64,000 nucleotides of DNA, from positions 41,542,001 to 41,606,000 of the forward strand of contig OX485806.1 in the NCBI GenBank assembly GCA_950295325.1. The letters are read 5' to 3'. Below are positions 8,259 to 30,796 of the stretch, in pieces. The translations under genes were made by a program, and so were the position numbers. Source of the stretch: Polytrichum commune (taxonomy: Eukaryota > Streptophyta > Polytrichopsida > Polytrichales > Polytrichaceae). The notes under the pieces were generated by a model, which did not search any database, was not told where the DNA came from, and was given only the letters and a program-made list of their open reading frames with translations. How positions within the stretch are numbered: position 1 is the stretch's first letter; every line of letters starts with the position of its first letter.

Positions 8259-9063
8259 TGTGAGCAACCATTCCCCCACCCTTAAGTGAATCTTAGTCCG
8301 GGAAGGGGTTTTGCTCTCATTTTTGCCAATCACTCAATGTGAGAACTTAAGTGGTGAAATCATTACTCACATATTTAACAACCATACAAGTAATCATATA
8401 TACTTAATTCTTATTACAATGCAAAGGAGTGGAAATTCCATTCTCCCAATCCATGGTCCTAATGCCCAACTATCTACCTCATTAATCACTCGCTAACTAC
8501 CTTATGAATTTATTAATGTATCCTCCTTTGCTAAGCTTCGTCTCACTACTCAGAAACAATTGTTCCTTTTGCACTCTCATCTTGTAACCCACTTTGCAAC
8601 AACCCTTCACAAGTCACATTGATTGGCTTTTCACTGTGGCTTGCTCATGCTCAAGCTTAGTTCCCAATTCCCTGCAGCCACTTCCCACATAGCGCCATTA
8701 GCAGCCGACCATCACTACCCCGTCTTAGCAACCATTTGCTACACTAGCGGCATGGTGCTAGCCCTTCTCCGTTAACCTTTGCTACTCCCTTACAGGTCTG
8801 CTACTCCCTTACACGTGATTTGGAGCTCCACAACCAAAAATCCCCCCCCCCACCTATTCGCCACCGCCAGAACACTCAACCTAACAATGCAACGCATCCA
8901 ACTCCACATGCAACCCCCACATCAATGCTCCCTCCTCTCACAAGCCCTTCTACCAGCTTCAGGTTTTTGATACTACCACCAAAACATTGCCCCCTCCTTT
9001 TTGTATCTCGTACCGTCCACTCGATTCCCAAATTGTAGCAGCTTTCGCCTTTCCGAACAGATG
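8259..9063 (+). repeat. R4 element, left arm
   Basis: The arm starts TGTGAGC followed by a CCCCCACCCTTA block, as in the R4 copies at about 40297 and 1601 (both minus). It is C-rich and has no convincing gene. It interrupts copia RNase H on the left and ends at the MULE target duplication. The right arm is 30797-32492. Together the arms make about 2.5 kb, which fits a solo LTR or a non-autonomous retroelement. Confidence 0.6.
9055..9063 (+). other. Left 9-bp target duplication of the giant MULE
   Basis: GAACAGATG here is repeated exactly at 30788-30796, just outside the right inverted end. Nine bases is the usual target duplication of Mutator-family elements. Confidence 0.88.
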
Positions 9064-9094
9064 GGACGAAGCTATTTTGCGAGCGGTGAGCGGT
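9064..9094 (+). repeat. MULE left terminal inverted repeat
   Basis: The left end starts GGACGAAGCTATTTTGCG and then has a GAGCGGT heptamer repeated about twice. Its reverse complement matches 30756-30787 with changes only in the outer 7-8 bases. Weaker similarity may continue inward: CCTATGACCG occurs at 9207-9216 and, inverted, at 30691-30700. Confidence 0.88.
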
Positions 9095-9515
9095 AACTTC
9101 CGCGATATTTTGATTAAAATATTATTTTAAGCAGTAAGTTTAGGGTATATTTGGACTAAATGTATTTTAAGTAATTTTTTTCTTCTAAACTTAGTGAACA
9201 GTGGGACCTATGACCGTGGACAATTAAGGGCTATGATATAGGAAAAAATGTTATTGTATCAGTGAAAAATATGGTTTAGGGGCTTAAATCGAACATTTGG
9301 AACTAATATCAGTAATAAATATGGGTTTGTCTCAAGTCAAACACGTATTGTTTCAGTACAAGGAGAATTACTGGTACTCCAAAAAGGTCACGCAACTTTG
9401 GAAAAGAGAAATACATGTGGTGCGTCAAATGTCTTGTAGTGGCCTTTTTAGTATCACTACATCATGATTATAAAAAATCTTGCATACATATGTTTCTTTA
9501 AAGAAACAGAAAACT
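9095..9515. other. MULE left subterminal region, non-coding
   Basis: AT-rich sequence lies between the left inverted end and the transposase stop codon. It would hold the 3' untranslated region of the transposase. No gene is seen. Confidence 0.5.
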
Positions 9516-12500
9516 CTAAGAGTCAAGGTACTTCAATGAACCAGCATCCAAAACTCGCTTCACTTCGTTGAAGCTAAAACTAGCTGCATGAATAAATGTC
9601 TCTGAATCTGAGTCCAAACCACACACTACAGTAAACAAATAATACAAATGCTTACAGTTGGCCCATTGACCCTTTTTTCCAATTGCTTTAGTCGCCATGT
9701 CCTTGAAGTTAGGACAAGTGCATGTTGGCAGCTGCGAAATCGTCAAGTAGTATTGCTAAACCTTTGGGGGCGTGCCGGAATCCAAGGAGACGATGCATCC
9801 TAAGGCAGGGGCTGGAAGCATGCACAGTTTGTGCACTTTGGCTTTCAGTGATAGGGTTGAGGCACAATTATTGGCGTGTTTTGTTGACGGGGCCTTCTTG
9901 TTGCGCCTAATCAACTTCCCTGAACGCCGGGTGGGAAACTCATCTGGATATGCAGGAGTCGTGTAGCTTGCTAAATCCAAAGGTAATGGGTGGTCCTGAA
10001 AAATTCTGGAAGGTGTCATCTCCATCCGCTGGGGCAGTTTAAATCCTCCGTTTTCTAAAGAGAGGATCTCTTTGCATGTTAAGTTGGTCCCCAACTTAAC
10101 CGGCCATACCTCCGGAACGTTCGGGACTGAGACCACCCACCTCCTTTTTGTACCCTTAACGCATCTCTCAATGTCGTCATTGCAGAAAAAAAAGTCTTGA
10201 GGGTCCAATCTCTTCTTCCGATAGTTATCCATGAGGCCTGAGTAGGTAGGTGCAGCGGTGCTCTTCCCGTCTTGTACAATCCGAGCGACGCACTTCTTTT
10301 TGGTGATTGCTCGTAGAGCAAAGCAAGCCTTCGCAGATGTCTTAGGCAGCCGTGCGATGTGCCACTGGGCAGGGTTGCATAATGTCTCCTCAATCGCGGT
10401 GACGTGGTGCCGATCCACCCGCTGTGGAGCGTCGTGTGTTGGAAATTGCGGTTGGTCTTCATCTGCAGTTGTGGAAGAATCTGGAGTTGTCATAGGAGGT
10501 GGAGAATCGTTCAGTCGGGCAGATCTGGTTTGGACGCGTGGTCGGGATATACTGATCTTGTCTGGCCTGTGAGATTCACGTTCGTCACCAAAAGCAGTAT
10601 CCGATTTACGCTTCAGAGAAACAAATACCTCTTCCCCTTCGAGGTGGGGAGTCCTGGTGCACCACTCGTCACCGCTAGGCATCTTCAAGATGGCCTCATG
10701 CAGCGGTTTCGAGATTCCTGTTTTTACGGCAGACCTCTGAGCACGCCTCAGCTTCAATTCCTCCTTCGACGGTCCAGTTCCAGGGTTCTCTCCCTTTAGG
10801 AATTGGGAATATGCTGAGCACTGCATGAAAGCACGCACGAAGTCATCGATTGTTGCCACATAAAGGTCGCTGCCCCGATCGCCAGATTGCTGCTTCCACT
10901 TGTTGTGGATAGATTCAGCAAGGTTACAGGATGGCATTTCCGCTAGTTCAGCTTCACTTAGATCCTGCAATGCCCAGACAGTCCGAATTAGAATAATGGC
11001 GGAATCAATGTAGTTGAACCATAAAGTGGGAACTATACAGGAAATATAGAGGGAAATATAGACTTACCAACTCCATAAATCCATCCCATTGGCGGTAACG
11101 GAAATGCCAGAAGGCCAGCCAGAGCTCAAGTCGAGGTAGACCTTGTTCAGTTGCTGCCCCGGATGACATCCACCATGCCTGAATTGCCAAATACTTTGTC
11201 TCGGCCTCCGCCATCGATTTCGCATTCTTGTATTGCTGGCATAGTATTCGATGCTGATGTTGCAGGTCTTGACGGATATCGGCCTTGGTATGTTTCTCCA
11301 AGGACTGCGTCCAATGGAAAAGACAAGTCCTCTCTCTATCCACCATCTTCTTAGACGCATCTCCACTTCCGTATATGATTCGAACAACATTCCAGTTGGT
11401 TTGGGCACTGTCGGCCATGAAACCTTTAAAATTTACTTTGTCCACTCCATGTTGAGCCATGAGAGCGTTCAGGGTCTTCCATACGACTGACTGGGCTGCA
11501 ACATCTTCAGACTGCATGTCGCATACTGTGATGGTCATGACACGGCAATATGTGGAATCGTACACATGGCAAGCCATTGTCGTCCACGACCTGACCCGTT
11601 TGACATGGTCAAACATTATCCAGAAGTTCTCCAAGTCACCACCGGGTTGCATTCGTTGGACCAGGTCGACTCCGCTGCCCGGTCCAACTTCAGACATCTT
11701 GAAGACAAAGACCTTGTCCATGTCCGCTCCTTGCCCTGGAAACCTATTCTGCTGCACGAACCTCCAATTGCTAGCACCGCATAACTTGGTAATACTGTCC
11801 ATGACTCCAAAGCGACGCATAGTCCTGAACGTGGTGACTGCGTTACGAATGTTGGGCGAGGTGAGGTGCTTACACCGATCGAAAATAACTTGCAGCTCGT
11901 CCAGCTCCAAGATCTTTTGTGGGTCACCTTCTTTAGCAAGGAGGAGTAGGCCCAGTACTTCCTTTGCAGTTTCAAGCACAATAGCGGAGCGAGTGGCTGA
12001 TGGGGTGCGTTCGACTTGATCCCCAATCAAGGTGTTTGTCAAATCGATGAAGCCCCGATGATCACCTAACTTGACGGGATGGTCGTGAGATCCCAAGTGC
12101 ACACAAACCCTCGTCATGTGAGGTGTCGCGGTAACATAGTAGATCTTGGTAGTGCAGACAACAACACAAGTGGGAGGGACGTTACATGATTTGCAAACAA
12201 CGGTCGAACTAGTTGGAGGCTTGGACCCTACTTCAAACAATTTCTCAGATAATCCTTCCCACTCTGTTTCATTCACTTGGGAAGTCCTGTGGTCTTGCCG
12301 AAGATACTCACAAGCAGGATTGTCGCAACGGAGGTGGCCCAAACAAGAAGATGTACGAAACAAAAGCTTGAGATCTTTATGAATATTGGTTGTAATTGTG
12401 CGAGACCAAGCATGGCCATCGTACCTTCTATCCATTCCACAAACCAGCTTGGCCTTTGTATTCTGGCCATGGTCACCTAAAGGTGGAAACTCGAAGATAA

Positions 12501-13158
12501 CGTCCCCATCGTAACAAGGGGGAAGGTATTCAACATGCTGGAGTCTGATCGCATCAAAGTTAATATGAGATAACACACTTTTGGACCGCTTACGAGCTCC
12601 AAGGCGAATCAATGAATGAATGATACTGACAACATGACTTGTCACAACATTGGACTGACCAGGATTACGAAACGGACTAACAGGAGGAGTTGTTTCCTTG
12701 CGAACTACTTGTGGAGAGAGCGAAATTGGGACTTTCCTCTTTGATTTTAGGAATTCAACATCGCCATCGGAATCATCACTCAACTCATATATTGTATTTA
12801 GACCGGGCTCAATTTTGACCCTAGCCAGGACCGGTCTCTCAATGCTAACAGTGGACGACTCCTTAGGTGTTAGAAGTTCAGTCGAACACTCTAACATAGA
12901 CTCTGAGACTCCATATACACGATATTTTCCAGGCTTCAGCAACCAGAACGCACCGACGTCATTCTCTACCCTAGTTTGACGAATTGCATGTGAAAGTAGA
13001 CCGGTATGATCGTCAAAAACTTCTTCTTCGACAAAGATAGTGACCTCACGATACTGAAACCTCAAACTCAATGTTGCACAAGTGACTATAGCATGACCGT
13101 CTTCACCTAATGGAAAGAGGACCGGAACAGAATGAGGTTCAGCACGAAGCAGGGCCAT
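9516..13158 (-). CDS. MULE transposase, two exons, in-frame TAG before SWIM finger
   Basis: This gene would cut and paste the element by acting on its inverted ends. Exon 1 is 13158-11068 and exon 2 starts at 10964. The 103-bp intron (11067-10965) has GTAAGT and TTGCAG edges and keeps frame. I chose the ATG at 13158 because the open frame above it looks non-coding and an AG lies just before it. In the 1,099-residue product, an N-terminal Cys/His module (about residues 235-360: SCLGHLRC, CKSC, HLGSHDHPV) resembles the WRKY-GCM1 fingers of transposases. The catalytic triad reads DSTY (D534), MADSAQTN (D583) and NLAESIHNKW (E714), with the MULE C-x2-H motif CLFH at 612. A TAG at 9758-9756 stops the frame. 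The same frame resumes at once with QYYLTISQLPTCTCPNF and ...CKH, a SWIM finger (CxC...CxH), ending at 9516. Readthrough would give about 1,178 residues. The nuclease core is complete upstream of the stop. Confidence 0.87.
10965..11067 (-). other. Transposase intron
   Basis: A 103-bp GT-AG intron lies between the second catalytic Asp and the catalytic Glu. The donor is TTG|GTAAGT and the acceptor is TTGCAG|GAT. Both junctions are phase 0. Without splicing the frame runs on and stops after about 17 codons. Confidence 0.85.
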
Positions 13159-14066
13159 AGTAAACCACTGAATTCTAAACAAAACAAGTACTCTGAACAA
13201 AACAAGTACTGTGAACATTGAAATGGAGAGAATATATAACAGGAAAGAATTTACTGTGCAATCTGGTAATTTATGTACCAGCAAGCGGAATTTCAGAGTC
13301 ATGCAGAGTAAGCTGAAAGACGGCTGAAAAACCAATTTTGGATGCAAGTCCGAGATAGGCAAGAAACCGAATAGTAGAATCCTATAACAGGCATACATAT
13401 CAAATAGTACAATCCAATAACAGGCATACATTCTAAACATTGTTAATTATAATATATATTGGCAAATAAGGTCATAAGAATAATGTAGAGAGCATGATAG
13501 TAGCTCGGCAATAATATTAGAATGCTACATTGTGATTAACGACGAAGACGCTTATGGGGCCCTTTGCCATTTTTGTCACCGTCATGTTTATGACAATGGT
13601 CAATCCCTAAACTATGAACTGCAGTGCATCCTGCGCAACTGAGTCCCTGACCTTAGGGACGTGGGGCCTGCCTTAATAGAGATCTAGAATAAGTGCCCGG
13701 TTTAATAACCCCTACTCTAGAATAGGCATGAGTTTGTAAAGTAGACTTGTCACTACAAGGAAATGTGTGTATAATTGACAAAAATGTGACACTAAAATGT
13801 CCGAAGTGACAAAATCAGCTCAAAGCTATGAGTTTTTGTCAATTCGGACATTATTCAAAATTTGTGTCAATTTTCTGTCATCAGATTTATATATTTCACG
13901 TTTAACTTATTCCCTTCACCTGAGCATGTGTCTCATATTTATTAACAACAAAAGGTGTTACAAAAGGTGTTACAAAAGGTTTTTAATTATTGTAATTACT
14001 AGTATAAGTAATTAATATAATTAATGTATTTACTATAATTAATGTAATAACTAATTTAATTAATTA

Positions 14067-14290
14067 ATGTACATACTGAAATTACCCATTTGAGTAAATA
14101 CTGAAATTACCAATTTAAGTAAATGGGGAAATTACCAATTTAAGTAAATACTGAAATTTGTTCATTTAAGTAAATATTGAAATTTTCTAATTTAGGTAAA
14201 TACTGAAATTTGCTAATTTAAGTAAATATTGAAATTTGCTAATTTAAGTAAATACTGAAATTTGCTATTTTCAGTAAAATACTGAAATTA
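14067..14290 (+). repeat. 25-26-bp AT-rich tandem repeats in the CACTA element
   Basis: About eight copies of a TAAATACTGAAATTTGCTAATTTAAG-like unit, each slightly altered. They have no coding value. Confidence 0.85.
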
Positions 14291-14518
14291 TTGTAATTAA
14301 TGTAGTTAAAATAATTAAAATAATTACTGTAATAATGTTCAGGAGTATTTTGTAAATTGTTTTTAATACAAATACAATACGTACTAATTAAAAACAGTAA
14401 ATACATTAATTCTATGTTTGTTTTTACTTTCACTAATTAAAATATATATATACATAAGTTTATAAGTCTTATGGCTTCTTCATACAAAACTCTTACATAC
14501 TTGGCCTATATCATGTAA

Positions 14519-14731
14519 TGAGCGGTGGCTTAGTGGCTAAGGCCTTCACACTATAGCCAAGAGTTTCAAGGTTCGATCCCCTTGACCCCTTACCCTTGGC
14601 TTCGCCTAGGGTAGGTAGGTGGCTTTGTCCATTAGCCTAGGTTAGGTGAGGTGGCCCTTCGCCCTTAGACCTATGTGAGTAGGCCCCGAATGCGAGGGTG
14701 GATTACTAATTTAGGATTTTTTTACTAGTAT
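14519..14731 (+). mobile_element. tRNA-derived SINE-like unit
   Basis: The head carries a polymerase III A box (TGGCTTAGTGGCTAAGG, about 14526-14542) and a B box (GGTTCGATCCC, 14570-14580). The B box sits in a good T-arm stem (CAAGG/CCTTG). There is no matching acceptor stem, so it is not a working tRNA gene. About 140 bp of unrelated body follows, ending in a T-run near 14717-14723. That layout is typical of plant tRNA-derived SINEs. No clear target duplication was found, so the ends are approximate. Confidence 0.65.
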
Positions 14732-15178
14732 AACTTGGACATTAAACCACATCACCATGGGTAAATGACGAGGTAAAGAGAATCCAACATGGCAAGGGGG
14801 CCGGAGTAAATGGAATCCTACGTGTATAATTGTCCCAGATGACAAAGAAATTGACAAAACTCTGTTAATTGTATGACCGAATCAAGGTGCCCTATATGAC
14901 ACCCAAATTAACAGAATTTCGTCACATTTTTGTCAAATAGGTCATATAAACTCTTGTAGTGTGTCCTCTATCAGCGTTGCAACGTCCGTCTGCAAAGATG
15001 GAGTCCCGGGATGTGGACTCTGAATTGCGACCGCCGGAGTAACTGAGCAGTAAGGTGGGTTTAGAATCTTCATGTTGTTGACGTCTGGAAAACCATCAAT
15101 CGACGATGTGATGTGGATTTGTGATGCACTAGGAGCACCTAAAGGAGCAAGGCTCGGGAGACTTGAGTCAGTACCCAT

Positions 15179-15723
15179 TGGAGAAGAATATGATGAGATG
15201 AGATGAAAGAATGGGTACAAGTAATCGGGTATTATATACACCTAGGGTAGACAGCAATGCCCGAATATTAGATAACCTGATAGATCAATTAATAGTCAAT
15301 AGATATTTATGTAAATTTTGGACAACCTGTTTCATGTATGAATAAAATGTACTACAATAGTAGTCATCCCTTTATCACCACGAATTATCTGACATGGAAG
15401 GATACGATTATGTAGAAAAGGATTTTGTAGTGTATGAATGCAGGGTGGATTAACAAAGGATCACTTTAAGTAACTGCAGATTAACTATCTAAATACAAGA
15501 AAATGTGAACATAACGATGGCGCATAGATGTTAATTCTGACAGACTTGAAAATGATATATAAGATGTGTTTGCTCCAGATGTTTGTTAGAGATGAACACT
15601 AGGTCGAGAGCAAGAGCAGAACGAGAAGTAATGAGGAATAGTGAGAAACAGAGGCGAATTGAGAGAAGGCAAAGGTTAGAATAAAGAGAAAGCTTAGGGA
15701 CGCCGTACAATTTGCGGACAACA
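15179..15723. promoter_or_regulatory. Candidate divergent promoter region
   Basis: The gap separates the starts of the small minus-strand gene (15178) and the plus-strand methyltransferase-like gene (15724). A TATATAAT on the minus strand (about 15239-15232) is some 55 bp above the small gene. A TATATAAG on the plus strand (about 15556-15563) is some 160 bp above the other. Both are only candidate TATA boxes. Confidence 0.4.
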
Positions 15724-16195
15724 ATGGGTAGAAGAGGGGTTACTTCTTCTAAGGGTACAGGTAGAGGTTCCAAAGGGGAAAAAACGTTTGATGTTGAAGC
15801 GGTAGCTCCCATCGTTTTATTTCCAGTAACGGAGGAAGACAACCCAGATGACAAAGGGGGCAGTGAGGTGTTGTTTATCAAAAATCCTCATGATATTGTT
15901 TTCTTCAAAAACGTAATGTGAACCACTCTCACGGATAATTAGAACAGTTGAGACCCAATAGCTTTCCATTATGTTGTTTTTATTTTTGGTGATGGAATGT
16001 GAATAGGATTTGGATTGGGCATCTGGAACAGGGAATGACACAGACACAACTTCAACCTGGGGCAGCCTCGAGTGCCTCAACATCAGATCATAGTGAGCAA
16101 CAGGTTTGTGAAGATTGTTTTCAATTGGTGACTTTTATGGTTTTGGGATTAGGGTAATGTTTCTATCCAACGAAAATAGTTTATTCACTTAACAG

Positions 16196-16276
16196 GGACT
16201 CGGAGATTTTGATCGGGACGCAGCTGGCCTTTGCGAAGGGACCATGGATAATGACGAGATGCAATTCGAGGAAGAA
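16196..16276 (+). other. Exon 3, apparent duplicate of exon 4
   Basis: Exon 3 ends EGTMDNDEMQFEEE and exon 4 (22279-22365) ends EGIMDHDEQNVGEE. Both start with (G/S)LG, both are phase 0 on each side, and both are followed by a GTAnG donor. They look like a duplicated exon now separated by the 6-kb repeat intron. Confidence 0.65.
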
Positions 16277-16439
16277 GTAGGCTCCTTGAATCTGTTTTCT
16301 GATGTAGGGTTCGAAGAGAGACATTTGGAGACCCAAACCAGATTTTTGGATACCTGAGAGAGAATTTTAGGTAGAGCACCACTTGCCACTTGTGGCTATC
16401 GGTCCTGAAATCAGATTTCTGAAAGCCAGCATTATTCTC

Positions 16440-19400
16440 CAAAGTGTGTCCGGGTTCCGAGATACCCTTTGGGGGGGTCTAACGTGGGCTGAATTGAGTG
16501 TGAAGTGAGTTTAGGGTACACTTAGGTAAGGTTGTGATTAGACCTGAATCTGATGTGAGTGTGAATTTAGTTTAGGTTAGAAGTCAATAAGGTTGTGATA
16601 AGGCATCAATCTGATGTGGGTGTCAATTCACTGTTGGTTTGATGTTGCAAAGGTTATGAATAGGCCCGAAATCTGATGTGAGTGTGAAGTGAGGCAAGGT
16701 TAGAAGTTGATAAGGTTGTGATTAGGTTTGAATCTGAGGTGAGTGTGAATTCAGTGTTGGTTAGATGTTGATCAGGCCCGAAATCTGATATGGGTGTGAA
16801 ATCATTTGGGTTAGAAGTTGCTTAGGTTGTGATTAGGCCTGAATCTAATTTAAGTGTGAAGTGAGTTTGGGGTATATGTTGCTTAGGTTGTGACTAGGCT
16901 TGAATCCGATTTAAGTGTGAAGTGAGTTTGGGTTATATGTAGCTTAGGTTGTGATTAGGCCTGAATCTGAATTAAAAGTGAAATGAGCTGGGGTTATATG
17001 TAGCATAGGTTGTGATTAGGCCTGAATTTGAATTGTTCAAAATAGTGTGTCTCGGTCCCGAGAGACCCTAGAGAAGGTCTTAACTGGGTTGAATTATGTG
17101 TGAAATCAGTTTAGGTATAATGTTGTTGAGGTTTCTGCTAGGCCTCAAATCAACCTTAAGTGTGAAATGAATTTGAATCATATGTTGGTAATAATCTGAT
17201 AAGGCCTGAAATATGATTTAAGTGTGAAGTTGGTAAAGCTGATATAAGGCCTGAAATCAAATTTCCGAAAGTTAGGTTTGTTCAAAAAAATGTGTCTCGG
17301 TCCCGAGACACCCTAGACAAGGGTAATGAGTGGGCTGACTTTAGTGTGAAATCAATTGGTTTAGAAGTCGATAAGGTTGTGATTAGGCCTGAATCTGATT
17401 TAAGTGTGAAGTGAACTTGGGTTATATGTTGCTTAGGTTGTGATTAGGCTTGAATCTGATTTAAGTGTGAAGTCAGTTTGGGTTGTATGTTGATAAGGTT
17501 GTGATTAGGCCTGAATCTGATTTAAGTGTGAAGGGAGTTTGGGTTATATGTTGCGTATGTTGTGATTAGGCCTGAATCTGATTTATGTGTGAAGTTGGTA
17601 AGGCTCATATAAGGCCTGAAATCAAATCTCTTAAAGTTAGCTTTGTTCAAAAAAGTGTGTCTCGGTCCCGAGTCACCCGAGGCAAGGGTCTTCATTGGGT
17701 TGAATTCAGTGTGAAATCAATTGGGTTAGAAGTTGATAACGTTGTGATGAGGCCTGAATCTGCTTTAAGTGTGAAGTGAGTTTGGGTTATATGTAGCTTA
17801 GGTTGTGATTAGGCATGAATCTGATTTAAGTGTGAAGTTGGTAAAGCTCATATAAGGCCTGAAATCAAATCTCTTAATGTTAGCTTTGTTCAAAATAGTG
17901 TGTCTCAGTCCCGAGAAACCTTTGAGAAGGGCATTAAGTGGATTGACTTAAGTGTGGAATCAATTGGGTTAGAAGTCGAAATGGTTGTGATTAAGCATGA
18001 ATCTGTTTGAAGTGTGAAGTGAGCTTGGGTTATATGTTGCTTAGGTTGTGATTAGGCTTGAATCTGATTTACGTGTGTACTGAGTTTGGGTTGTATGTTG
18101 ATAAGGTTGTGATTAGGCCTGAATCTTATTTAAGTGTGACGTTGGTAAGGCTCATATAAGGCCTGAAATCAAATCTCTTAATGTTAGCTTTGTTCAAAAA
18201 AGTGTGTCTCGGTCCCGAGACACCCTTGAGAAGGGTATTAAGTGGGCTGACTTAAGTGTGAAATCGATTGGGTTAGAAGTTGATAAGGTTGTGAATAGGC
18301 CTGAATCTTATTTAAGTGTGAAGTGAGCTTGGGTTATATGTAGCTTAGGTTGTGATTAGGCCTAAAATCTGATTTAAGTTTGAAGTTGGTAAAGCTCATA
18401 TAAGGCCTGAAATCAAATTTTTGAAAGTCACGTTTGTTCAAAATAGTGTGTCTCGGTCCTGAGACACCCTAGACAAGGGTATTAAGTGGGCCGACTTAAG
18501 TGTGAAATCAATTGGGTTAGAAGTTGCTTAGGTTGTGATTAGGCCTGAATCTGATTTAAGTGTGAAGTGAGTTTGGGTTATATGTTGTGTATGTTGTGAT
18601 TAGGCCTGAATCTGATTTATGTTTGAAGTTGGTAAGGCTCATATAAGGCCTGAAATCAAATTTCTTAAAGTTAGCTTTGTTCAAAAAAGTGTGTCTCGGT
18701 CCCGAGACACCCTAGACAAGGGTATTAGGTGGGCTGAATGAAGTGTGAAATCAATTGGGTTAGAAGTGGATAAGGTTGTGATTAGGCCTGAAATCTGATT
18801 TAAGTTTGAAGTTGTTAAGACTCATATAAGGCCTGAAATCAAATCTCTTAATGTTAGCTTTATTCAAAATAGTGTGTCCCGGTCCCGAGACACCCTTGAG
18901 AAGGGTATTAAGCGGGCTGATTTAAGTGTGAAATCAATTGGGTTATAAGTTGATAAGGTTGTGATTAGGCCTGAATCTGATTTAAGTGTGAAGTGAGTTT
19001 GGGTTATATGTTTCTTAGGTTGTGATTAGGCCTGAAATCTGATTTAAGTTTGAAGTTGTTAAGGCTCATATAAGCCCTGAAATCAAATCTCTTCATGTTA
19101 GCTTTATTCAAAATAGTGTGTCTCGGTCCCGAGACACCCTTGAGAAATGTATTAAGTGGGCTGACTTAAGTGTGAAATCAATTGGGTTAGGAGTTGATAA
19201 GGTTGTGATGAGGCCTGAATGTGATATAAGTGTGAAGTGAGTTTGGGTTATATGTTTCTTAGATTGTGATTAGGCATGAATCTGATTTAAGTGTGAAGTT
19301 GGTAAGGCTCATATAAGCCCTGAAATCAAATCTCTTCATGTTAGCTTTATTCAAAATAGTGTGTCTCGTTCCTGAGACACCCTTGAGAAGTGTATTAAGT

Positions 19401-22260
19401 GGGCTGACTTAAGTGTGAAATCAATTGGGTTAGGAGTTGATAAGGTTTTGATGAGGCCTGAATGTGATATATGTATGTTGCATAGGTTGTGTGTAGGCCT
19501 GAAATCTTAATTGTGTTAAAATAGTGTGTCTCGGCCCCGAGAGACCCTAGAGAAGGTCTTAACTGGGTTGAACTATGTTTGTAATCAGTTGGGTTAGGAT
19601 GTTGGTAAGGTTTTTGTTAGGCTTGAAATCAACCTTGAGTGTGAATTGAGTTTTAATCTGATGTTGGTAATAATGTGATTAGGCCTAAAATCTGATTTAA
19701 GTGTGAAGTTGGTAAAGCCGATATAAGGCCTGAAATCAAATTTTTGAAAATCACATTTGTTCAAAATAGTGTGTCTCGGTCCCGAGACACCCTAGACAAG
19801 GGTATTAAGTGGGCTGACTTAAGTGTGAAATCAATTGGGTGAGAAGTTGATAAGGTTGTGATGAGGCCTGAATCTGATTTAAGTGTGAAATGAGCTTGGG
19901 TTATATGTAGCTTAGGTTGTGATTAGACCTAAAATCTGATTTAAGTTTCAAGTAGGTAAAGCTGATATAAGGCCTGAAATCAAATCTCTTAAAGTTAGCT
20001 TTGTTCGAAATAGTGTGTCTCGGTCCTGAGACACCCGAGGCAAGGGTCTTCAGTGGGCTGAATTCAGCGTGAAATCAATTCGGTTAGAAGTTGCTTAGGT
20101 TGTGATCAGGCCTGAATCTGATTTAAGTGTGAAGTTAGTTTGGGTTATATGTAGCTTAGGTTGTGACTAGGCTTGAATCTGATTTAAGTGTGAAGTTGGT
20201 AAGCCTCGTATAAGGCCTGAAATCAAATCTCTTAATGTTAGCTTTATTCAAAATAGTGTCTCTCGGTCCCGAGACACCCGAGGCAAGGGTCTTCAGTGGG
20301 CTGAATTCAATGTGAAATCAATTGGGTTAGAGATTGATAATGTTGTGATGAGGCCTGAATCTGATTTAAGTGTGAAGTGAGTTTGGGTTATATGTTGCGT
20401 ATGTTGTGATTAGGCCTGAATCTGATTTATGTGTGAAGTTGGTAAGGTTCATATAAGGCCTGAAATCAAATCTCTTAAAGTTAGCTTTGTTCAAAATAGT
20501 GTGTCTCGGTCCCAAGACACCCTAGACAAGGGTATTAAGTGGGCTGAATTAAGTGTGAAATCGATTGGGTTAGAAGTCGATAAGGTTGTGATTAGGCCTG
20601 AATCTTATTTAAGTGCGAAGTGAGCTTGGGATATATGTTGCTAAGGTTGTGATTAGGCTTGAATCTGATTTAAGTGTGAAGTGAGTTTGGGTTATATGTT
20701 GCATAGGTTGTGTGTAGGCCTGAAATCTGAATTGTTCATAATAGTATGTCTCGGCCCCGAGAGACCCTAGAGAAAGTCTTCACTGGGTTGAATTATGTTT
20801 GAAATCAGTTGGGTTAGGATGTTGGTATGGTTTTTTTTAGGCCTGAAATCAACCTTAAGTGTGAATTGAGTTTGAATCTGATGTTGATAATAATGTGATT
20901 AGGCCTAAAATCTGATTTAAGTGTGAAGTTGGTGAAGCCGATATAAGGCCTGAAATCAAATTTTTGAAAGTCACATTTGTTCAAAAAAGTGTGATCCGGT
21001 CCCGAGACACCCTAGACAAGGGTATTAAGTGGGCTGACTTAAGTGTGAAATCAATTGGGTGAGAAGTTGATAAGGTTGTGATGAGGCCTGAATCTGATTT
21101 AAGTGTGAAATGAGCTTGGGTTATATGTAGCTTAGGTTGTGATTAGACCTAAAATCTGATTTAAGTTTCAAGTAGGTAAAGCTGATATAAGGCCTGAAAT
21201 CAAATCTCTTAAAGTTAGCTTTGTTCGAAATAGTGTGTCTCGGTCCCGAGACACCCGAGGCAAGGGTCTTCAGTGGGCTGAATTCAGCGTGAAATCAATT
21301 GGGTTAGAAGTTGCTTAGGTTGTGATCAGGCCTGAATCTGATTTAAGTGTGAAGTGAGTTTGGGTTATATGTAGCTTAGGTTGTGATTAGGCCTGAATCT
21401 GATTTAAGTGTGAAGTTGGTAAAGCTCATATAAGGCCTGAAATCAAATCTCTTAATGTTAGCTTTGTTGAAAATAGTGTGTCTCGGTCACGAGACACCCT
21501 TGAGAAGGGTATTAAGTGGGCTGACTTAAGTGTGAAATCGATTGGGTTAGAAGTCGATAAGGTTGTGATCAGGCATAAATCTGATTTAAGTGTGAAGTGA
21601 GTTTGGGTTGTATGTTGCATAGGTTGTGTGTAGGCCTGAAATCTGAATTGTTCAAAATAGTGTGTCTCGGTCCCGAGAGACCCTAGAGAAGGTCTTAACT
21701 GGGTTGAACTATGTTTGAAATCACTTGGGTTAGGATGTTGGTAAGGTATTTGTTAGTCCTGAAATCAACCTTAAGTGTGAAGTGAGTTTGAATCTGATGT
21801 TGGTATTAATGTGATTAGGCCTGAAATCTGATTTAAGTGTGAAGGTGGCAATGCTGATATAAGGCCTGAAATCAAATTTTTGAAAGTCACATTTGTTCAA
21901 AATAGTGTGTCTCGGTCCCGAGACACCCTAGACAAGGGTGTCTCGTTGGCTGAATTATGTGTGAAATCAGTTGGGTTAGGATGTTGGTAATGTTTTAGTT
22001 AGGCCAGAAATCAACCTTAAGTGTGAAGTGAATTTGAATTGGATGTTGGTTATAATGTGCTTAGAATTGAAATCTGAAATTTCATTGTTGGTTAAATGAT
22101 TATTGGATTGTAATTAGGCCTGAAATCTGATTTGAGTGTGAATTTAGTTTATATGCCAAGATGTTGATTACGCCAAAACATATTATTTGACTTTGAATTT
22201 AGTTTGGGTTGGTTGTTGGGAAGGCTGTGATTAGGCCTGACATCAAAATTGGAAAATTAA
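16440..22260 (+). repeat. 61-bp satellite-like array in intron 3
   Basis: About 95 tandem monomers of about 61 bp, with a core like GTGATTAGGCCTGAATCTGA followed by TTTAAGTGTGAAGTGAG. A palindromic block, GTGTCTCG-GTCC-CGAGACAC, followed by CCTAGACAAGGGTATTAAG, recurs roughly 22 times. Spacing is mostly 243-245 bp (four monomers), with some at about 183, 304 and 363 bp. Short frames starting MCEVGK... recur by repetition only. The array lies wholly between splice sites 16277 and 22278. Confidence 0.92.
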
Positions 22261-22455
22261 GCATTGGATTTTCCGCAGAGTTTGGGAGCTACCGATCTTG
22301 AAACTTACGTTTCAAATGCTATTGAAGGCATCATGGACCATGATGAGCAGAATGTTGGAGAAGAGGTAAGTACTCATGTAGTTACATAATGTGTGAATTA
22401 GTTGTACCTTATGCCATGCAGCTTTGTGTCTTAAATACATACCTGTGTTTTGTAG

Positions 22456-24044
22456 GTCGAGTGCCCCACCCCCCAGGACTCACCGGCACCGGCTTCACCG
22501 GCAGCGACTCAAGCTTCAAGAGAGACTGCAATTGATCTTGACAGTTCTGATGAAGGTCAGGATGAGGATGAAGATGGGCTTGGAGATAAGGATACGTTTG
22601 ACGGGGATGAAGATGAACTTAGATCCCGTCAAAAATTGAATTCCGTGGCCATGATCTCTCAATTGAGAGTCAAACCTTTCAGTTCATCGAGGTTCAATAT
22701 TCCTTTATGTAGAATGCTTGCCATGCCTATGGTGAGGCCAACACTCTCAACTGATCTTGATAAATTAGAGCAGGAGTTTGTCCATGGGTATAGAGAGGGC
22801 TCCTCAGTTTTTTATGTGACATTAACAGATGAAGAAGGCAAACACACAGGAGGTGTCTGAAGCTGATAAGGCATCCTGGGGTCCCATTTGGAATTCAAAA
22901 AATGAAGAATTTAATTCCTATCTTCAGTCTGTTCCGGAGTTAGCCGGTTTCAAGGATTTGATGTTCTTTGTATGTGACGGTAACCATAGGCGTCAGGCAT
23001 GGTTAAATCATATTGAAAGACTTCACAAAACAGATGAGGCCTGACATTATATGGTGGATAGCATCCTACTTGACACAAAAGGCAAAGTTGGGGTTGTTAT
23101 GCAAGTGATGCATAACATCAACAAGTAAGTTTTGTTAATTAATTTGTATTTCTTTCTATGTAAAATACTTCTTGTTATACCATTAATGTCATGTGCTAAT
23201 CCACCCTTTTTTTATTAATAATTGCAGGCATACTGAAGACTCTCATGTCGAGACCAACTTTGTTCACACCCTTTTTAGGATTCAAAAGTATGGTCTTATG
23301 CCAATCGAACATTATCAAGACATATTGACTCCATCAGAGATGAAGAGGTGCAAGAGAACTCAAAATGCCAAAAAAACTTGGTACACATTGAATCTTAAAG
23401 TATTCACGAACTTCATCTTCCGGGTATGATCTCTATAATATGTACTGCAAGTTTTAATCACTAACATATTGTCATTATCTAAAATCAAATGATCACATAG
23501 GTTACAGTATACTTGGATGACTAACTAAGTCTACCCCTGTGCAGCATGAACTTGGACTTGCTGCAGATGAGGGTGTTCGACAACTTGTGGAGCAATCAGA
23601 TGTAGAAGTGTCCGCCGCTAAAAAAACAACCGCTATGAAAGTTGCTACAAAGAAAAGAGCCAAGGCACTTCATAAGAAAATGTCGAAACTAGTTGCTCTG
23701 GCAAACCCGGACTTGACGGATGGATGGCTTCGAGAGGTATAAACTCTACTTTACAAGCACATTTTTCAATCTTCATGTTCTTTAATGACCCCTGAGATTC
23801 TAATAAATAGCTATATGTTTCAAAGATTGGACGTCACTATAGTCTTAGCTCAATTACACCCGAGCTCAATATGGAGAAATTGCAGTTGATCGTTACTGCA
23901 AAAGCATCGGCCGCTTCTAAGGTTAAATGGTTGGAATATTTAAACTCCTCTGCATCTACACGTGAGGCCCGCAAACTGCCCCCTAAGCCCACCAACGAGG
24001 AGAAACTGGGTGCATTTCTAGCTAAGGCGTGCTTTTGGGCCGGA
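22456..24044 (+). other. Exons 5-8: acidic and unrecognised domain
   Basis: This block lies between the two repeat introns. Exon 5 (22456-23124) has an acidic run, then a folded-looking region with VKPFSSSRFNIPLCRML, SVFYVTLTDEEGKHTG and FKDLMFFVCDGNHRRQAW. Exon 6 carries FVHTLFRIQKYGLMPIEHYQ. Exon 7 is Lys/Ala-rich (KVATKKRAKALHKKMSK), and exon 8 ends LGAFLAKACFWAG. I do not recognise the fold. The frameshift (about 22840-22858) and the TGA (23042) both fall in exon 5. Confidence 0.6.
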
Positions 24045-24064
24045 GTGAGTTAATACTTCGCAAT

Positions 24065-26350
24065 CAATTCGTTTAATCTGTTTGTCTTGAGGCCTGAAAA
24101 CAATTTGGGTTATATGTTGCTTAGGTTGTGATTAGGCCTGAAATCAAATTTTTGACATTAAGATTTGGTCAACAAGGGTCTTAAGTGGGCTGAACTAAAT
24201 GTGAAATCAATTGGGATAGATGTTGCTATGGTTGTGATTAGGCTTGAATCTGATCTAAGTGTGAACTGAGTTTGGGATATTTGTTGCTTAGCTTGTGATG
24301 ATGCCCGACAGCTGATTTCAGTGTGAAGTGAGTGATGGATAGACTTTGGTAAGCTTGTGAATAGGCCTGAATCTGATGTGAGTGTGAAATTTAAGTGTCA
24401 AGTTGTAAAGGTGTTTAGTAGGCCTAAAATCAAATTTCTGAGAGTAAGATTTGGTCAATAAGGTGTGTCTCGGTCTTGGACCCTAGACAAGGGTCTTAAG
24501 TGGACTGAAGTAAGTGTGAAATCAATTGGGTTAGATGTTGCCATGGTTGTGATTAGGCTTGAATTTGTTTTAAGTATCAAGTGAGTTTGGGTTATATGTT
24601 GATAAGGTTGTGATTAGGCCTGAAATCTGATTTAAGTGTCAAGTGTGTTTGGGTTATATGTTGCTTAGGTTGTGATTAAGCCTGAAATATGGTTTAAGTG
24701 TCAAGTTGTTAAGGCTGCTATAAGGCCTGAAATCAAAATTTTGAAAGTCACATTTGTTCAAAATAGTGTGTCTCGGTCCCGAGACACCCTAGACAAGGGT
24801 ATTAAGTGGGCTGACTTCGGTGTGAAATCAATTGGGTTAGAAGATGATAAGGTTGTGATTATGCCTGAATCTGATTTAAGTGTCAAGTGCGTTTGGGTTA
24901 TATGTTGCTTAGGTTGTGATTAGGCCTAAAATCTGATTTAAGTGTCAAGTGCGTTTGGGTTATATGTTTCTTAGGTTGTGATTAGGCCTGAAATCTGAAC
25001 TAAGTTTGAAGTTGTTAAGGCTGACATAAGGCCTGAAATCAAATTTCTGGAAGTCAGCTTTGTTCAAAAAAGTGTGTCTCGGTCCCGAGACACCCTAGAC
25101 AAGGGTCTTATGTGGGCTGAATTAAGTGTGAAGTAATTTCAGATTAGAAGTTGATAAGGTTGTGATTAGGCGTGAATATGATATAAGTGTGAAGTGAGGT
25201 TTGGTTATATGTTGCTTAGGTTGTGTTTAGGCCTGAAATTTGAATTGTTCAAAATAGTGTGTCTCGGTCCCGAGACACCTTGGACAAGGTCTTAACTGGG
25301 CTGAATTATGTGTGAAATCAGTTAGGGTAGGATGTTGGTAAGGTATTTGTTAGGCCTGAAATCAACCTTAAGTGTGAAGTGAGTTTGAATTGGATGTTGG
25401 TAATAATGTCATTAGGCCTGAAATCTAATTTAAGTGTGAAGTTGGTAAAGCCGATATAAGGCCTGAAATCAAATTTTTGAAAGTCACATTTGTTCAAAAT
25501 AGTGTGTCTCGGTCCCAAGACACCCTAGACAAGGGTATTAAGTGGGCTGACTTAAGTGTGAAATCAATTGGGTTAGAAGTTGATAAGGTTGTGATTAGGC
25601 CTGAATCTGATTGAAATGTGAAGTGAGTTTGGGTTATATGTAGCTTAGGTTGTGATTAGGCCTGAAATCTGATTTAAGTTTGAAGTTGTTGAGGCTCATA
25701 TAAGGCCTGAAATCAAATCTCTTAATGTTAGCTTTATTCAAAATAGTGTGTCTCGGTCCCGAGACACCATTGAGAAGGTTATTAAGTGGGCTGACTTAAG
25801 TGTGAAATCAATTGGGTTATAAGTTGATAAGGTTGTGATTAGGCCTGAAATCTGAATTGTTCAAAATATTGTATCTCGGTCCCGAGACACCCTAGACAAG
25901 GTCTTAACTGGGCTGAATTATGTGTGAAATCAGTTAGGGTAGGATGTTGGTAAGGTATTTGTTAGGCCTGAAATCAACCTTAAGTGTGAAGTGAGTTTGA
26001 ATTGGATGTTGGTAATAATGTCGTTAGGCTTGAAATCTTATTTAAGTGTGAAGTTGGAAACGCTGATATAAGGCCTGAAATCAAATTTCCGAAAGTTAGG
26101 TTTGTTCAAAAAAGTGTATCTCGCTCCCTAGACACCCTAGACAAGGGTATTAAGTGGGCTGACTTAAGTGTGAAATCAATTGGGTTATAAGTTGATAAGG
26201 TTGTGATTAGGCCTGAATCTGATTTAAGTGTGAAGTGAGTTTGGGTTATATGTTTCTTAGGTTGTGATTAGGCCTGAAATCAAATTTGATTTTGAATTTA
26301 GTTTAGGCTAAATGTTACTCAGGTTGTGATTAGGCCTCAACTGAATTGTG
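24065..26350 (+). repeat. 61-bp satellite-like array in intron 8
   Basis: The same monomer and palindrome as in intron 3 fill most of the intron between 24045 and 26402. Palindromes lie near 24462, 24768, 25075, 25258, 25502, 25748, 25870 and 26117. Their spacings are close to 5, 5, 3, 4, 4, 2 and 4 monomers. Confidence 0.9.
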
Positions 26351-27824
26351 CATATGCGCTTATTTGAATTCGGGGAGCTTCTATTATATTTTCTTTCCAT
26401 AGATATCTGAGCAAGCTTCTATTATCTATGAAGAAACAGTGAGTCAAGATAGACTGGTTATCAACTTTGAAGTACCCAGCGAGCCCTTATCCTTGGTTGC
26501 ATACATCGAGGATTGTAGAATGAAGTTATGGGACAATGCATTCCCCACCTTCTTTCGAGGGCAGGATGCTTTTAACAAAACTCACGAATTTGAGGGCTTC
26601 AAAGGAACTGACTTGATTGTGAGAAGAGTACTCTTTTGGTAAGATTTATCCTTCTCCAACTAGAATTCTTGTATTTGTCATATTGATTTGGTTGTTCACA
26701 TGGCATGTATTTTGATTGCAAGGTATATAACGATGAGGTTTTTTTTAACCCGCAGGTTTTTCAAGTACGAGCTCCTTGCAAAAGGAGCAATAACAAAAGA
26801 AGATCTCCCAATATTTCTCTCTACATGGCTTGACAGGTCGAACTCAACGTGCATGTTCTCAGCAAATCAGCAGCGGACGTGGTCTACCTCGCATCTCACA
26901 GGAGGTGGATGGTACCTCGACTGTGCTCCTAGTTTCACTCCCTCCTTTGAAACTGAACTTAGGAAGTCGAGGGATGCAGTTGGTGAGTCTTGTGTTGAGA
27001 TGGTTGATTTACAGGGCATTGAAGACGAGCACGAGAGGGCAAAGGCCCTCTCGCGACATCTAGAAGAAGATAGGAAGAAAACGCTTAAGGTGAAGGAAGC
27101 CGAGGAGAAAGCGGCCCAGAAAGAGATGGCAAAACTCCACAACTCTCTGGAGAAGACTAACAAGAGGGGGAAGAAGAAGATGAACCCCCCTCCAGAGCCA
27201 GAATGTAAGAGCCCACCTGCGCCTAGTCCTACATATGACTCTGGTTCTCATGCTCCAATTCAGTCTAGAGGAACCAAACGCGATTCCTCCTATGAGCAGT
27301 TAAGCCAAGGAATCCCTGTTTTCACATCGGTTGAGGAGAATGATGGCCAAGTTGGGGAGTGGATTAAAAACTTCTCACTAGAGCAAGTCCTTGGTGGCGA
27401 CACGAGCAACTTGAGTCCATTATATGACGAGTTAAAGAGCTTCATTTCTAAGGTACCATACTGCTCAACAGCTTTGCTTTGTTTATGTTTTCATTCAATT
27501 CTAATTCTCAAGCTGCGGAGTCCCATGAATGAGTTCTCAAGTTTCTTTCAATCATTCGTAGGTCATCATTCTCATTACAATGACATCCAACACATTTCTT
27601 TGTTAGTTTTCATTGTATGAAAACTTCAGCATTTGCTTAAGTCATTGACTTCTATCTGTTTTTGTATGTTATATGCGATTTCATTACATACACATCTCCT
27701 TCTCATGTATTTGATCTCGAAGTCAATTAATTGATTCACATTAATTCAGAACGGTGTCAAGTTAGAATGTGTGCAATCTTTGATTTTCTTGTCGGAGTTT
27801 TGATAAATTTATTTTCATGCGCAG

Positions 27825-28922
27825 CACTCAAGTGACAAAGGCCGACGCTACAAAGGATCTGCTGCGGAAGTACCCTGTGTGGACTTGATTCTTGCAGATC
27901 TTCCAGAGGGCCTTCTTGTTCCAGGAATTTCGAATCCACCTTCGTCTATTCCCGCCTGGAACATAGAACCTGAGGATTGGTTTCAAACAATCTTTGATTT
28001 TGCAGACCATCACCTCCAAGACGATGGGGCGATAATTTTGTTCCATCCTTTTCGAATGTCTACAAAGTCAATCATTCTTGGGTACTATTCCACGTATGGA
28101 TTTGCTGTTTGCAAAGAGTGGTGGGGGATGAACAAGCTTCACCTGACGTCACCAATTAATCCAGTCTTGACTGTGAGTTCATTTTATGATATGACTTATT
28201 GCTAATTTGATTGATAGTTGTATCTTATGTTATTAATCTTGTGAAACTAATCTTCCATTTCATTTGTTGGAATGTGCTTAATGATTTTTATCTTATTTCG
28301 TAAGTAAAGTAATTAACTGTTTTTGTAATCTGCAGACCATGAGGTTTGGAATAACTTTAGTTTTGAGGAGCATTCCGGAGGTGCGTGCTTCCAGATTTTG
28401 CTTTCAACACATCCCTGCACTAGACCGTCACGGGGTTGATGTGGCACGGGATGACATTCTCCAGAACCTGGTGTCAAGGGAGGATCAGTTAATGGATGGA
28501 TCCACCCCTTGGCGTGGTCCTCGCGAAAAATCCCTCGCCCTTATACAGATGCTCATTCAGGCATCTTCTTCACCCGGGGATATTGTTCTAGACTGCTCTA
28601 CAACTACAGGTACGTTGAACATCTCTTCATGTTTAAGTAAATAACCGTTGACCATTTCATGTTAATTAATTTTTATGTTGTTTGAGAACTGAACTTCATT
28701 GTTTTCTTATTTTGCAGGAGTTTCTATTCATGCGTGCCGCAATGTGAACCGTCACATTGCGGCATTAGAGGCTGACAAGGCAATTTTTGAAGCCTTGATC
28801 GCTCCTCTAATTCGATCTGCTTCGGCCATAGAAGTGAAATCAAGAGATGTTGTCATGTCAGAGGATCCACATAGCGAAATCATTGTTGTTCAGAAGATCG
28901 TGAAGAAGTCAAGGTTTAGTAA
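27825..28922 (+). other. Methyltransferase-like domain (exons 11-13)
   Basis: Exon 11 has VDLILADLPEGLL, which fits motif IV of amino methyltransferases (D-P-P-Y type) but reads D-L-P-E. A helix and strand (LQDDGAIILFHPF) and YGFAVCKEWWGMNKLHL follow. Exon 12 has REKSLALIQMLIQASSSPGD, like the block before motif I. Across the exon 12/13 join comes IVLDCSTTTGVSIHACRN and then IAALEADKAIFEAL, matching a motif I (D-P-F-x-G-x-G) that reads D-C-S-T-T-T-G. The IV-then-I order is that of the beta class. The changed key residues make catalysis doubtful. Confidence 0.65.
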
Positions 28923-29310
28923 GTGAGTATAGCTACTATTTCTACTACTAGTGATATATTTTCTTATTTGCTTTCATATGAGGCGGTTTTATGACCATGT
29001 TGCCATTTGCATTTGCAGAAGCGGTAATTTGAGATACCCTTATCACCGCGCTTTTTTTTGTGACCCTAAGTTCTATCCAAGCCCTCCAAAGTCATGGCGG
29101 CTCCCTTCATACGCAAATGATGTTGCCAATGAATTAGCGGAAGGTTCATATCGTACTTTTAGACCTAAGGAGTTGATGCTAAACGGTATAGAGTATGTTG
29201 ATTTAGAAGCTATTGAGTCTGAGGATGAAGGTTCTTCAGATGCAGATATTACAGATTCTAAAGTCTCTGTAGCATTATTTGATAATTGTGATTTCGATTA
29301 TATGTCTTAG

Positions 29311-30755
29311 GTAGAATTTTGTGTCTTATTGCTTGTATAATAATATATTTTTGCATTTGATTGTTAATTGTCCGTTTAGTGCGGTAATCTTCATGGTTTT
29401 CCTTAGACAGTGAATTATATTTTGTAATGCCTTCTTACACTCTTACCCTACACCCTCCTTGCACTCTATTATTCAATAAGACATAGAGGTAAACTACCTC
29501 ATTATCCACCATAGCATCATCCATGTAAAAAAATTCAAAACAAAAAACAAAAAACATAAAGAAATGTAGTTGTAAAAATATAGATCAAAACATGAAACAA
29601 AGACTAAGGAAAACTAAACCGAAAAACTAAACCAAAAAATTAAAGATGATAAGTATAGAATATCAATACGTTTTTTAGAATTACAAAAAATAAGAAGATA
29701 GACTGGAAGAAGAATGGAAGAATAAAAAAATCAGAAGATAGAATGGAAGAAGAATGGAATAACCCAAAAAAGGCTTGTGCATAAAATATGGACAACATCC
29801 TATGTTTTTGGTTCAAATCAAACATCAAACCCCAAGAAATCCGAGGCCATATCCAAAGTGGCCACTCCCACATGGAATCTGAACCACTTGGCATGCCGAA
29901 ACTCAACCTGAAACCAATGATTTCATGTCAAATTTATGGAGTCAGGTTGAATGTAGCTAAGCATGAAACCCAAACATGGCATGCCCACATTCAACCGGAA
30001 ACCATAAACTTTAATTCACCCTAAATATAAAACCCCTAGGCCTTGTCCAAAGTGGCCATGCCGAGACCGAACATGAAATCTAAGCCATTGGGCATGTCGA
30101 GACCCAAATTGATACCAATGATTCGATTTCAAATTTATGGAGTCAGGTTGAATGTAGCTAGACATGAAACCCAAACATGGCATGCCTGCATTCCATCTGA
30201 AATCATAAACTTGACCTCAAATCAAACAGCAAACCCCAAGGCCAACAGACCTCGGATCCGAGGCCTTCTGCAAAGTAGCCCCTCCACTTGAAATGCCGAA
30301 ACCCACCCAGAAACCACCAACTTTATACACAATCAAAATTTAGGGGCTCAAGCCATGAGGCCTCGGGTCCGAGGCCTTCTCCCAGTGGGACTTCATCCAC
30401 CTCAAATGACAACCTGTAACCATCCGAGACCCATTCCCAACCTACAAACCTTATACCCAATCTGAAATGATACTGCAGCCATGAGGCCTCAGATCCGAGG
30501 CCTTCTCCCAGTGGGACTTAATCGACCTCAAATGACATCTTGTAACCATCCGAGAGCCATTCCCAACCTACAAACCTTATAAGAGAAGGTGCAAGCAAAT
30601 ACCGTAACAGTATAAGTTCATCAACCACGTTTATAGGTTCTTTTGTCAATAAAATTGTCAATAAATATTTCAAAAGTTAGCTCTACACCGCGGTCATAGG
30701 GCATGTTTCACCACACAAAATTTCAATATTCTAGAAAACTCACCGCTCACCGCTC
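29311..30755. other. MULE right subterminal region, repeats and palindromes
   Basis: No gene is seen. It holds A-rich sequence (29520-29770) and two related units about 200 bp apart that share TTTATGGAGTCAGGTTGAAT (about 29933 and 30134). A 126-bp direct repeat starts at 30351 and 30477. The perfect palindrome CCTCGGATCCGAGG is at 30250-30263, with near copies at 30361-30374 and 30487-30500. Confidence 0.7.
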
Positions 30756-30787
30756 ACCGCTCACCGCTCGCAAAATAGCTTTTCCCC
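30741..30787 (-). repeat. MULE right terminal inverted repeat
   Basis: On the minus strand the end starts GGGGAAAAGCTATTTTGCG, then GAGCGGT repeated about four times (the left end has about two). The part matching the left end is 30756-30787. The target duplication GAACAGATG follows at 30788-30796. Confidence 0.88.
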
Positions 30788-30796
30788 GAACAGATG

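Follow-up and report, generated by a model that had tools for sequence, protein, structure and literature searches.

Among the Mutator-like elements (MULEs) that carry accessory genes, the VANDAL elements of Arabidopsis with their VANC proteins offer the nearest functional parallel to the locus described here, a 21.7-kb MULE at 9064..30787 (plus strand) of a 64-kb stretch of the Polytrichum commune genome (C4:41542001-41606000, the whole stretch analysed, hereafter the window). According to the excerpted text of PMC10398659, VANDAL families bear arrays of family-specific short motifs in their noncoding parts, and both the protein and its site differ among related families. The locus shares these features, since it too has noncoding, family-specific motif arrays and a protein and site that differ between families. 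It is set apart by ParB-type and methylase-type domains, palindromic sites and 26-bp inverted ends, and the parallel drawn with VANC is one of features. VANDALs are described in the excerpts of PMC6446971 as elements without terminal inverted repeats. The comparison with VANC, already made in a preliminary description of this DNA, is retained at the level of function.

Three other groups of systems are close enough to be compared. MuDR, with mudrA and mudrB, and other two-gene MULEs likewise combine a transposase with a second gene (PMC6446971, as excerpted), whereas the present elements are ~20 kb or more long, with arrays in introns and a ParB/methylase-type cargo, and are distinguished from mudrB on these features. 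Retrotransposons with DNA methyltransferases (Symbiodinium, Klebsormidium, and the Dam-like enzymes of DIRS elements) also place a DNA-methylase domain on a transposable element; those of Klebsormidium are under purifying selection, with a ratio of nonsynonymous to synonymous change (Ka/Ks) < 0.2, and keep their key residues, as stated in the excerpted part of PMC5890265. Here, in contrast, the carrier is a DNA transposon and the catalytic motif is replaced. Finally, the bacterial clamps ParB, Noc and KorB bind cytidine triphosphate (CTP) and act at palindromic sites of the parS type, whereas our candidate belongs to a eukaryotic transposon, is fused to a methylase-like domain and has no sequence-level match to them; no site-binding helix-turn-helix was identified in it, none having been sought by a tool. 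In the open-access literature searched, we found no description of a ParB-like or N6/N4-methylase-like MULE cargo, in keeping with the earlier statement that no described MULE with this gene set was known.

We propose that the element represents a large MULE family whose cargo, with a predicted ParB fold and a probably dead methylase domain, would serve a ParB/parS-like and VANC-like self-recognition that counters silencing, a reading to which we give about an even chance.

Domains and selection of the cargo protein

The cargo gene (15724..29310, plus strand) is transcribed divergently from the transposase and has 14 exons and ~1270 codons; gene models were built from splice consensus and homology. 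Exons 1-7 lie at 15724-15917, 16007-16103, 16196-16303, 22279-22365, 22456-23124 (read in three pieces), 23228-23423 and 23545-23736, and exons 8-14 at 23826-24044, 26403-26638, 26756-27452, 27825-28172, 28336-28609, 28718-28922 and 29019-29310. In the window the gene is broken by a frameshift at ~22849 and a TGA at 23042-23044.

The exon at 22456..23124 (plus strand) contains a GNHR motif and has a predicted ParB fold. Its structural model has a predicted local distance difference test score (pLDDT) of 79.9, the top Foldseek row is ParB (E 0.015), and the first 13 of the 34 VIA rows are of ParB type. The best PDB matches of the predicted fold are likewise ParB/Noc. These comparisons point to a predicted domain of the ParB N-terminal type (ParB/Srx superfamily).

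The exons at 27825..28922 (plus strand) encode a C-terminal domain of the N6_N4_Mtase family. The preliminary description had noticed a DNA-methyltransferase-like domain in this plus-strand gene, and it belongs to a real methylase family, as indicated by PF01555 (E 2.8e-8, 34.4 bits against a cut-off of 26.7) and PDB entry 5hfj (E 5.6e-8); PF01555 is matched at E<=5 by members of two of the three families of elements described below. Active N6/N4 methylases carry a catalytic (D/N)PP(Y/F/W) and an S-adenosylmethionine motif FxGxG. Motif IV was read in families A (to which the window copy belongs), A' and B, and the catalytic signature is absent from its position in all three. The window has ADLPEG there, and the form D[LIV]PE is found in all four family-A copies that have this exon, in nine of the ten copies of A', the tenth (L041) being damaged at this place, and in the one family-B copy read. 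At the motif I position, family A has DCSTTTG, as in the window, which does not match FxGxG, and family B has DWQCGVG, with GxG retained. Given D[LIV]PE at the catalytic motif, the cargo is probably no active methylase. The suggestion that it could mark, read or protect its own DNA thus survives in part: as the catalytic motif is replaced in every readable copy, the protein is unlikely to mark DNA by methylation and more likely to read or protect it.

The full cargo protein had no match at E<=1e-3 in public protein collections (7999 candidates scored), likely because these collections call its exons separately; when the ParB exon was used as the only query, it retrieved 994 clusters. Pattern matches were obtained in 8 viral and 14 prokaryotic cases, none of which codes for a relative, and no donor lineage emerged.

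Nonsynonymous (dN) and synonymous (dS) substitution rates demonstrate purifying selection on the cargo. Between A and A', dN is 0.17-0.18 and dS 1.4-1.5, giving ratios of 0.11-0.13 in all nine copies compared (the damaged L041 was left out). Within family A, the ratio of mean dN to mean dS is 0.29 for the ParB exon piece (7 copies), 0.49-0.78 for later cargo exons (4 copies, few changes), and 0.40 and 0.31 for the transposase (10 copies).

Palindrome arrays

Two introns of the cargo gene, at 16304..22278 and 24045..26402 (plus strand), hold tandem-repeat arrays with 13 and 5 exact copies, respectively, of the palindrome CTCGGNNCCGAG, which in the former occurs most often as GTGTCTCGGTCCCGAGACAC. 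The right subterminal repeats (30247..30503, plus strand) share this core but differ in the flanks (AGACCTCGGATCCGAGGCCT and relatives), with two exact sites and one with a single mismatch. All 20 exact copies in the window fall within the element, against 0.01 expected, and none lies in the cargo exons, in the transposase half or in the window outside the element. With one mismatch there are 30 in the window, two of them outside the element (34708 and 34887). Counting from the left end, the first palindrome of this type appears ~8 kb into the element, at 17051. The palindromic sites, as read from the sequences, carry CpG on both arms.

Other family-A stretches are similarly endowed, with exact counts of 25 (C2_11.86), 32 (C5_32.6), 18 (C4_48.0, those of 28 that lie inside the family-A copy), 30 (C3_6.7), 15 (C1_15.2), 3 (C4_12.97), 12 (C1_10.9) and 10 (C4_42.2); C4_49.0, which has lost the family-A cargo, has none. 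When long dyads were compared with 20 Markov simulations, nested or overlapping dyads being counted more than once, the two introns of the window gave 24 (largest simulated value 1), family B 43 (2), family C 23 (1) and A' 10 (3).

The arrays are conserved between the two subfamilies, A and A'. An A' stretch, L054, contains five sites, all GTGTCTCGGT[CG]CCGAGACAC, the same 20-bp palindrome as in the window. No other match to the introns of the window was found at E<=1e-5, and the 15 permissive blastn rows listed fall on the palindrome. L054 lies between a left end and one of the methylase copies of A', presumably in an intron.

Moreover, the site changes with the family. Family B at C4_48 has 13 copies of AGCTCTCGGATCCGAGAGCT in two array stretches, with the family-A core and other flanks, and for the one within the gene blastn gave no significant match to the introns of the window (best E 0.08). 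A single palindrome, GACCCTCTCGGATCCGAGAGGGTC, again with the family-A core and other flanks, occurs at ~950-975 of L057, in a short intron of a family-B gene. Between sites of the same core, in the right subterminal repeats and in family B, the flanks change on both sides and mostly symmetrically. Family C has its own palindrome, GGCCGTTAACGGCC, with 10 copies in L042, 2 in C4_49.0, 1 in L058 and 3 in L059; L060 has none and shows one symmetric variant, GGCCGTTTAAACGGCC.

Copies, linkage and families

The genome searched comprises 407.8 Mb. The left 337 bp of the element have 107 candidates; the 40 that were scored, one of them the window, all match at 92-100%. For the methylase exons, 40 of 135 candidates were scored, 27 at 92-100% (the window included) and 13 at 69-71%, the latter constituting A'. 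Linkage was judged from lists of 40 scored matches each (left end, of 107; transposase, of 848; small open reading frame (ORF), of 164; right end, of 408), and a partner missing from such a best-40 list weighs little. The methylase-like gene is linked to other parts of the element: 25 of the 27 close methylase copies, again with the window, have at least one other landmark in the correct order and strand, and two have none. A left end on the same strand lies within 85 kb upstream in at least 19 of the 27; two of these ends are 55 and 79 kb off and may belong to other copies. The transposase accompanies at least 16, the small ORF at least 17, and a right end 1.9-3.3 kb downstream at least 15.

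The preliminary description of a MULE with a linked cargo therefore holds, and for many copies; it lacked the ParB-fold domain, the palindrome arrays and the defects of the window copy. Neither of the two patterns that it had named as contradicting it was found, namely the same ends without the plus-strand gene (of ten left-end loci read, the window included, nine have this gene or at least the 5' exons of it, and the tenth, C4_49.0, looks like a nested copy with a deletion) or a gene mostly outside such ends (25 of the 27 close copies are linked).

Two further families, B and C (domains 32-42% identical), have the same layout, which is maintained across diverged transposases. The cargo gene is multi-exon in all three families, with at least 40 matches per family search.

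Nine further left-end loci were fetched, and eight have family-A cargo exons in the stretch. C4_49.0 is the exception, with a family-C cargo. We considered a cassette swap that joined a family-A transposase to a family-C cargo and rejected it; the 50 bp directly outside its left end correspond to the left portion of a family-C element (L042 reversed 1311-1360, 86%) and the right part resumes similarity to a family-C element further in, so that a nested insertion with a deletion is simpler.

The family-A copy C4_48.0 (= L015-L017, L031) sits within a cargo-gene exon of family B, where one transposon family thus disrupts the cargo of its sister family. The empty sites proposed earlier as a check find a counterpart here, as removal by script of the copy and one duplication restores the open frame of that exon.

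Proposed role and alternatives

In the reading that we prefer, the cargo protein would recognise, as a dimer, the palindromic repeats of its own element, load there as bacterial ParB does at parS, and then spread over the element, which it would either protect from silencing or render visible to the transposase. Protein and palindrome would diverge together between families and each family would, we propose, serve itself. We infer binding because gene and palindromes co-occur, because the sites are symmetric, because their conservation between A and A' resembles a footprint, and because the site changes with the protein family. Spreading may follow loading, and a role against silencing is suggested by analogy, because VANC likewise targets motifs that are arrayed in tandem in the noncoding DNA of its element (excerpts of PMC10398659). 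More tentatively, and as a possibility we rate clearly lower, a CTP-loaded clamp with a dead methylase as reader might load at family-specific CpG palindromes in its own introns, slide along the DNA and shield it from methylation, while the families diversify protein and palindrome jointly. If the proposal is right, it would be a second answer to the problem that VANC solves, that of a transposon evading silencing without harm to its host, here by means of a bacterial-type DNA clamp; three families with three palindromes offer concrete candidate protein-site pairs that can be tested.

Several observations weigh against it. The ParB assignment is a predicted fold, with no Foldseek match at E 1e-3 (best 0.015); no Pfam family matched the domain at E<=5 in three members, the PDB profile search gave no ParB match, and no helix-turn-helix for site recognition turned up, no tool-based search for one having been made. 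The right subterminal stretch alone has 2 long dyads, equal to the best of 20 simulations (2). Among four family-B loci, C4_48 has an array and L057 one palindrome, and no palindrome lies in the stretches sampled at L055 and L056 (2.2 kb downstream of each, and 1.7 kb upstream of L055). L061 is listed with these two as a family-B locus without palindromes. An array beside the gene is therefore not universal. In family A, conservation of the palindrome columns exceeds that of the remaining repeat unit only modestly (0.71 against 0.62, by a crude column count in which many anchors are spurious). Finally, all ten copies of the transposase that were examined contain one stop or more, and no active copy was seen.

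The main rival, which we hold to be unlikely, makes the cargo an accessory transposition factor that binds the palindromes to join the ends of a 20-kb element or to aid integration, with no part in silencing. Palindromes of the same core adjoin the right end too (30251-30499), and the excerpted text of PMC6446971 presents mudrB, the second gene of MuDR, as apparently needed for integration and mutB of Mutyl as DNA-binding. Such a factor would hardly explain why the palindromes begin only at 17051, far from the left end, with most of them deep inside introns. It is less probable still that the palindromes are a by-product of the way repeat arrays arise, through hairpins or unequal crossing-over, with no protein partner and a cargo that acts elsewhere. 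Tandem duplication alone multiplies any motif, and at two of the four family-B loci the stretches sampled are free of palindromes; yet the 20-mer is retained in A', where the rows listed show nothing else similar to the introns of the window, the core recurs in unrelated repeats, those of the right subterminal stretch and of family B, whose flanks differ on either side and for the most part symmetrically, and the two introns have 24 overlapping dyads where none of 20 Markov simulations gave more than 1.

A cargo that acts as an N6-adenine or N4-cytosine methylase and so marks its own element would fit the PF01555 score, the match to 5hfj and the Dam-like adenine methylases known on DIRS retrotransposons (PMC5890265, as excerpted). 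We judge it slightly more doubtful again, in view of D[LIV]PE at motif IV throughout the readable copies of A, A' and B and of DCSTTTG at motif I in the window. Pack-MULEs passively capture fragments of host genes, and the cargo might be such a fragment. MULEs tend to pick up pieces of host genes (excerpts of PMC6446971); this origin is very improbable here, given the dN/dS of 0.11-0.13 between A and A' and a multi-exon gene found in three families, with at least 40 matches per search and a layout kept across diverged transposases.

Element ends and transposase

The terminal inverted repeats at 9069..9094 (left, plus strand) and 30756..30781 (right, minus strand) share 26 identical bases, AAGCTATTTTGCGAGCGGTGAGCGGT; the common core noted earlier is thus real, and its length of 18 was too short. 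That 18-mer, with up to three mismatches, has only two sites in the window, the two ends, against 0.02 expected. As the preliminary description had reported, an exact 9-bp target-site duplication, GAACAGATG, flanks the window copy (9055..9063 and 30788..30796). In the other fetched copies but three, no right end showed in the stretch; all four copies with both ends have a 9-bp duplication, GAACAGATG, ATTGAACAT (for which 10 bp fits too), CCTGAGGAG and ATTCTCATG. CTCACCG 7-bp repeats at 30739-30769 adjoin the right end, differ in number among copies and are possibly a transposase-binding array. By eye, a fragment of a Copia-type retrotransposon ORF (7545-8090) lies immediately left of the element.

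The MULE transposase recognised earlier inside the element is of MULE/IS256 type and lies on the minus strand in two exons. Exon 1 (13158-11068) encodes an N-terminal domain, a putative GCM-like zinc domain and an IS256-like DDE domain (D517, D583, C612..H615), and exon 2 (10964-9516) a CxC..CxH that we take to be SWIM-like. The domains were read from homologues, invariant residues and structure comparison, and the protein combines a DDE transposase of IS256-like fold with CxxH after the second D, as expected of a MULE. The whole transposase matched no Pfam family at E<=1, a sign of a divergent lineage and no defining feature alone. Its 848 genomic candidates, against 135 for the methylase exons of the cargo, leave room for MULE relatives without this cargo. 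In the window copy, exon 2 contains a TAG at 9756-9758, across which the homologue P0001 is open; the window copy is a decayed, defective one.

Small ORF and nested insertion

The small ORF (13655..15178, minus strand; pieces 15178-14965 and 13750-13655) has 103 codons, its coding status being unproven. It is open in all seven other fetched copies that hold all of it, with a partial match only in C1_10.9 and none in C5_32.6. Among 11 relatives, 10 keep it open over the 103-codon length and also read on beyond the stop codon of the window. Within family A its dN/dS is 0.96 (8 copies, ratio of mean dN to mean dS), and against the 11 relatives dN is 0.081-0.100, dS 0.130-0.226 and dN/dS 0.36-0.73. 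The third small gene announced earlier is thus present and linked as an ORF, and its status as a gene is doubtful, there being little constraint.

The ORF is split by a nested insertion of 1211 bp (13751..14961) with a TGT target-site duplication and CACTACAAG ends, presumably CACTA-like by its family signature; no transposase was recognised within it. By eye, it also contains a tRNA-like stretch (14520-14590), perhaps derived from a short interspersed nuclear element.

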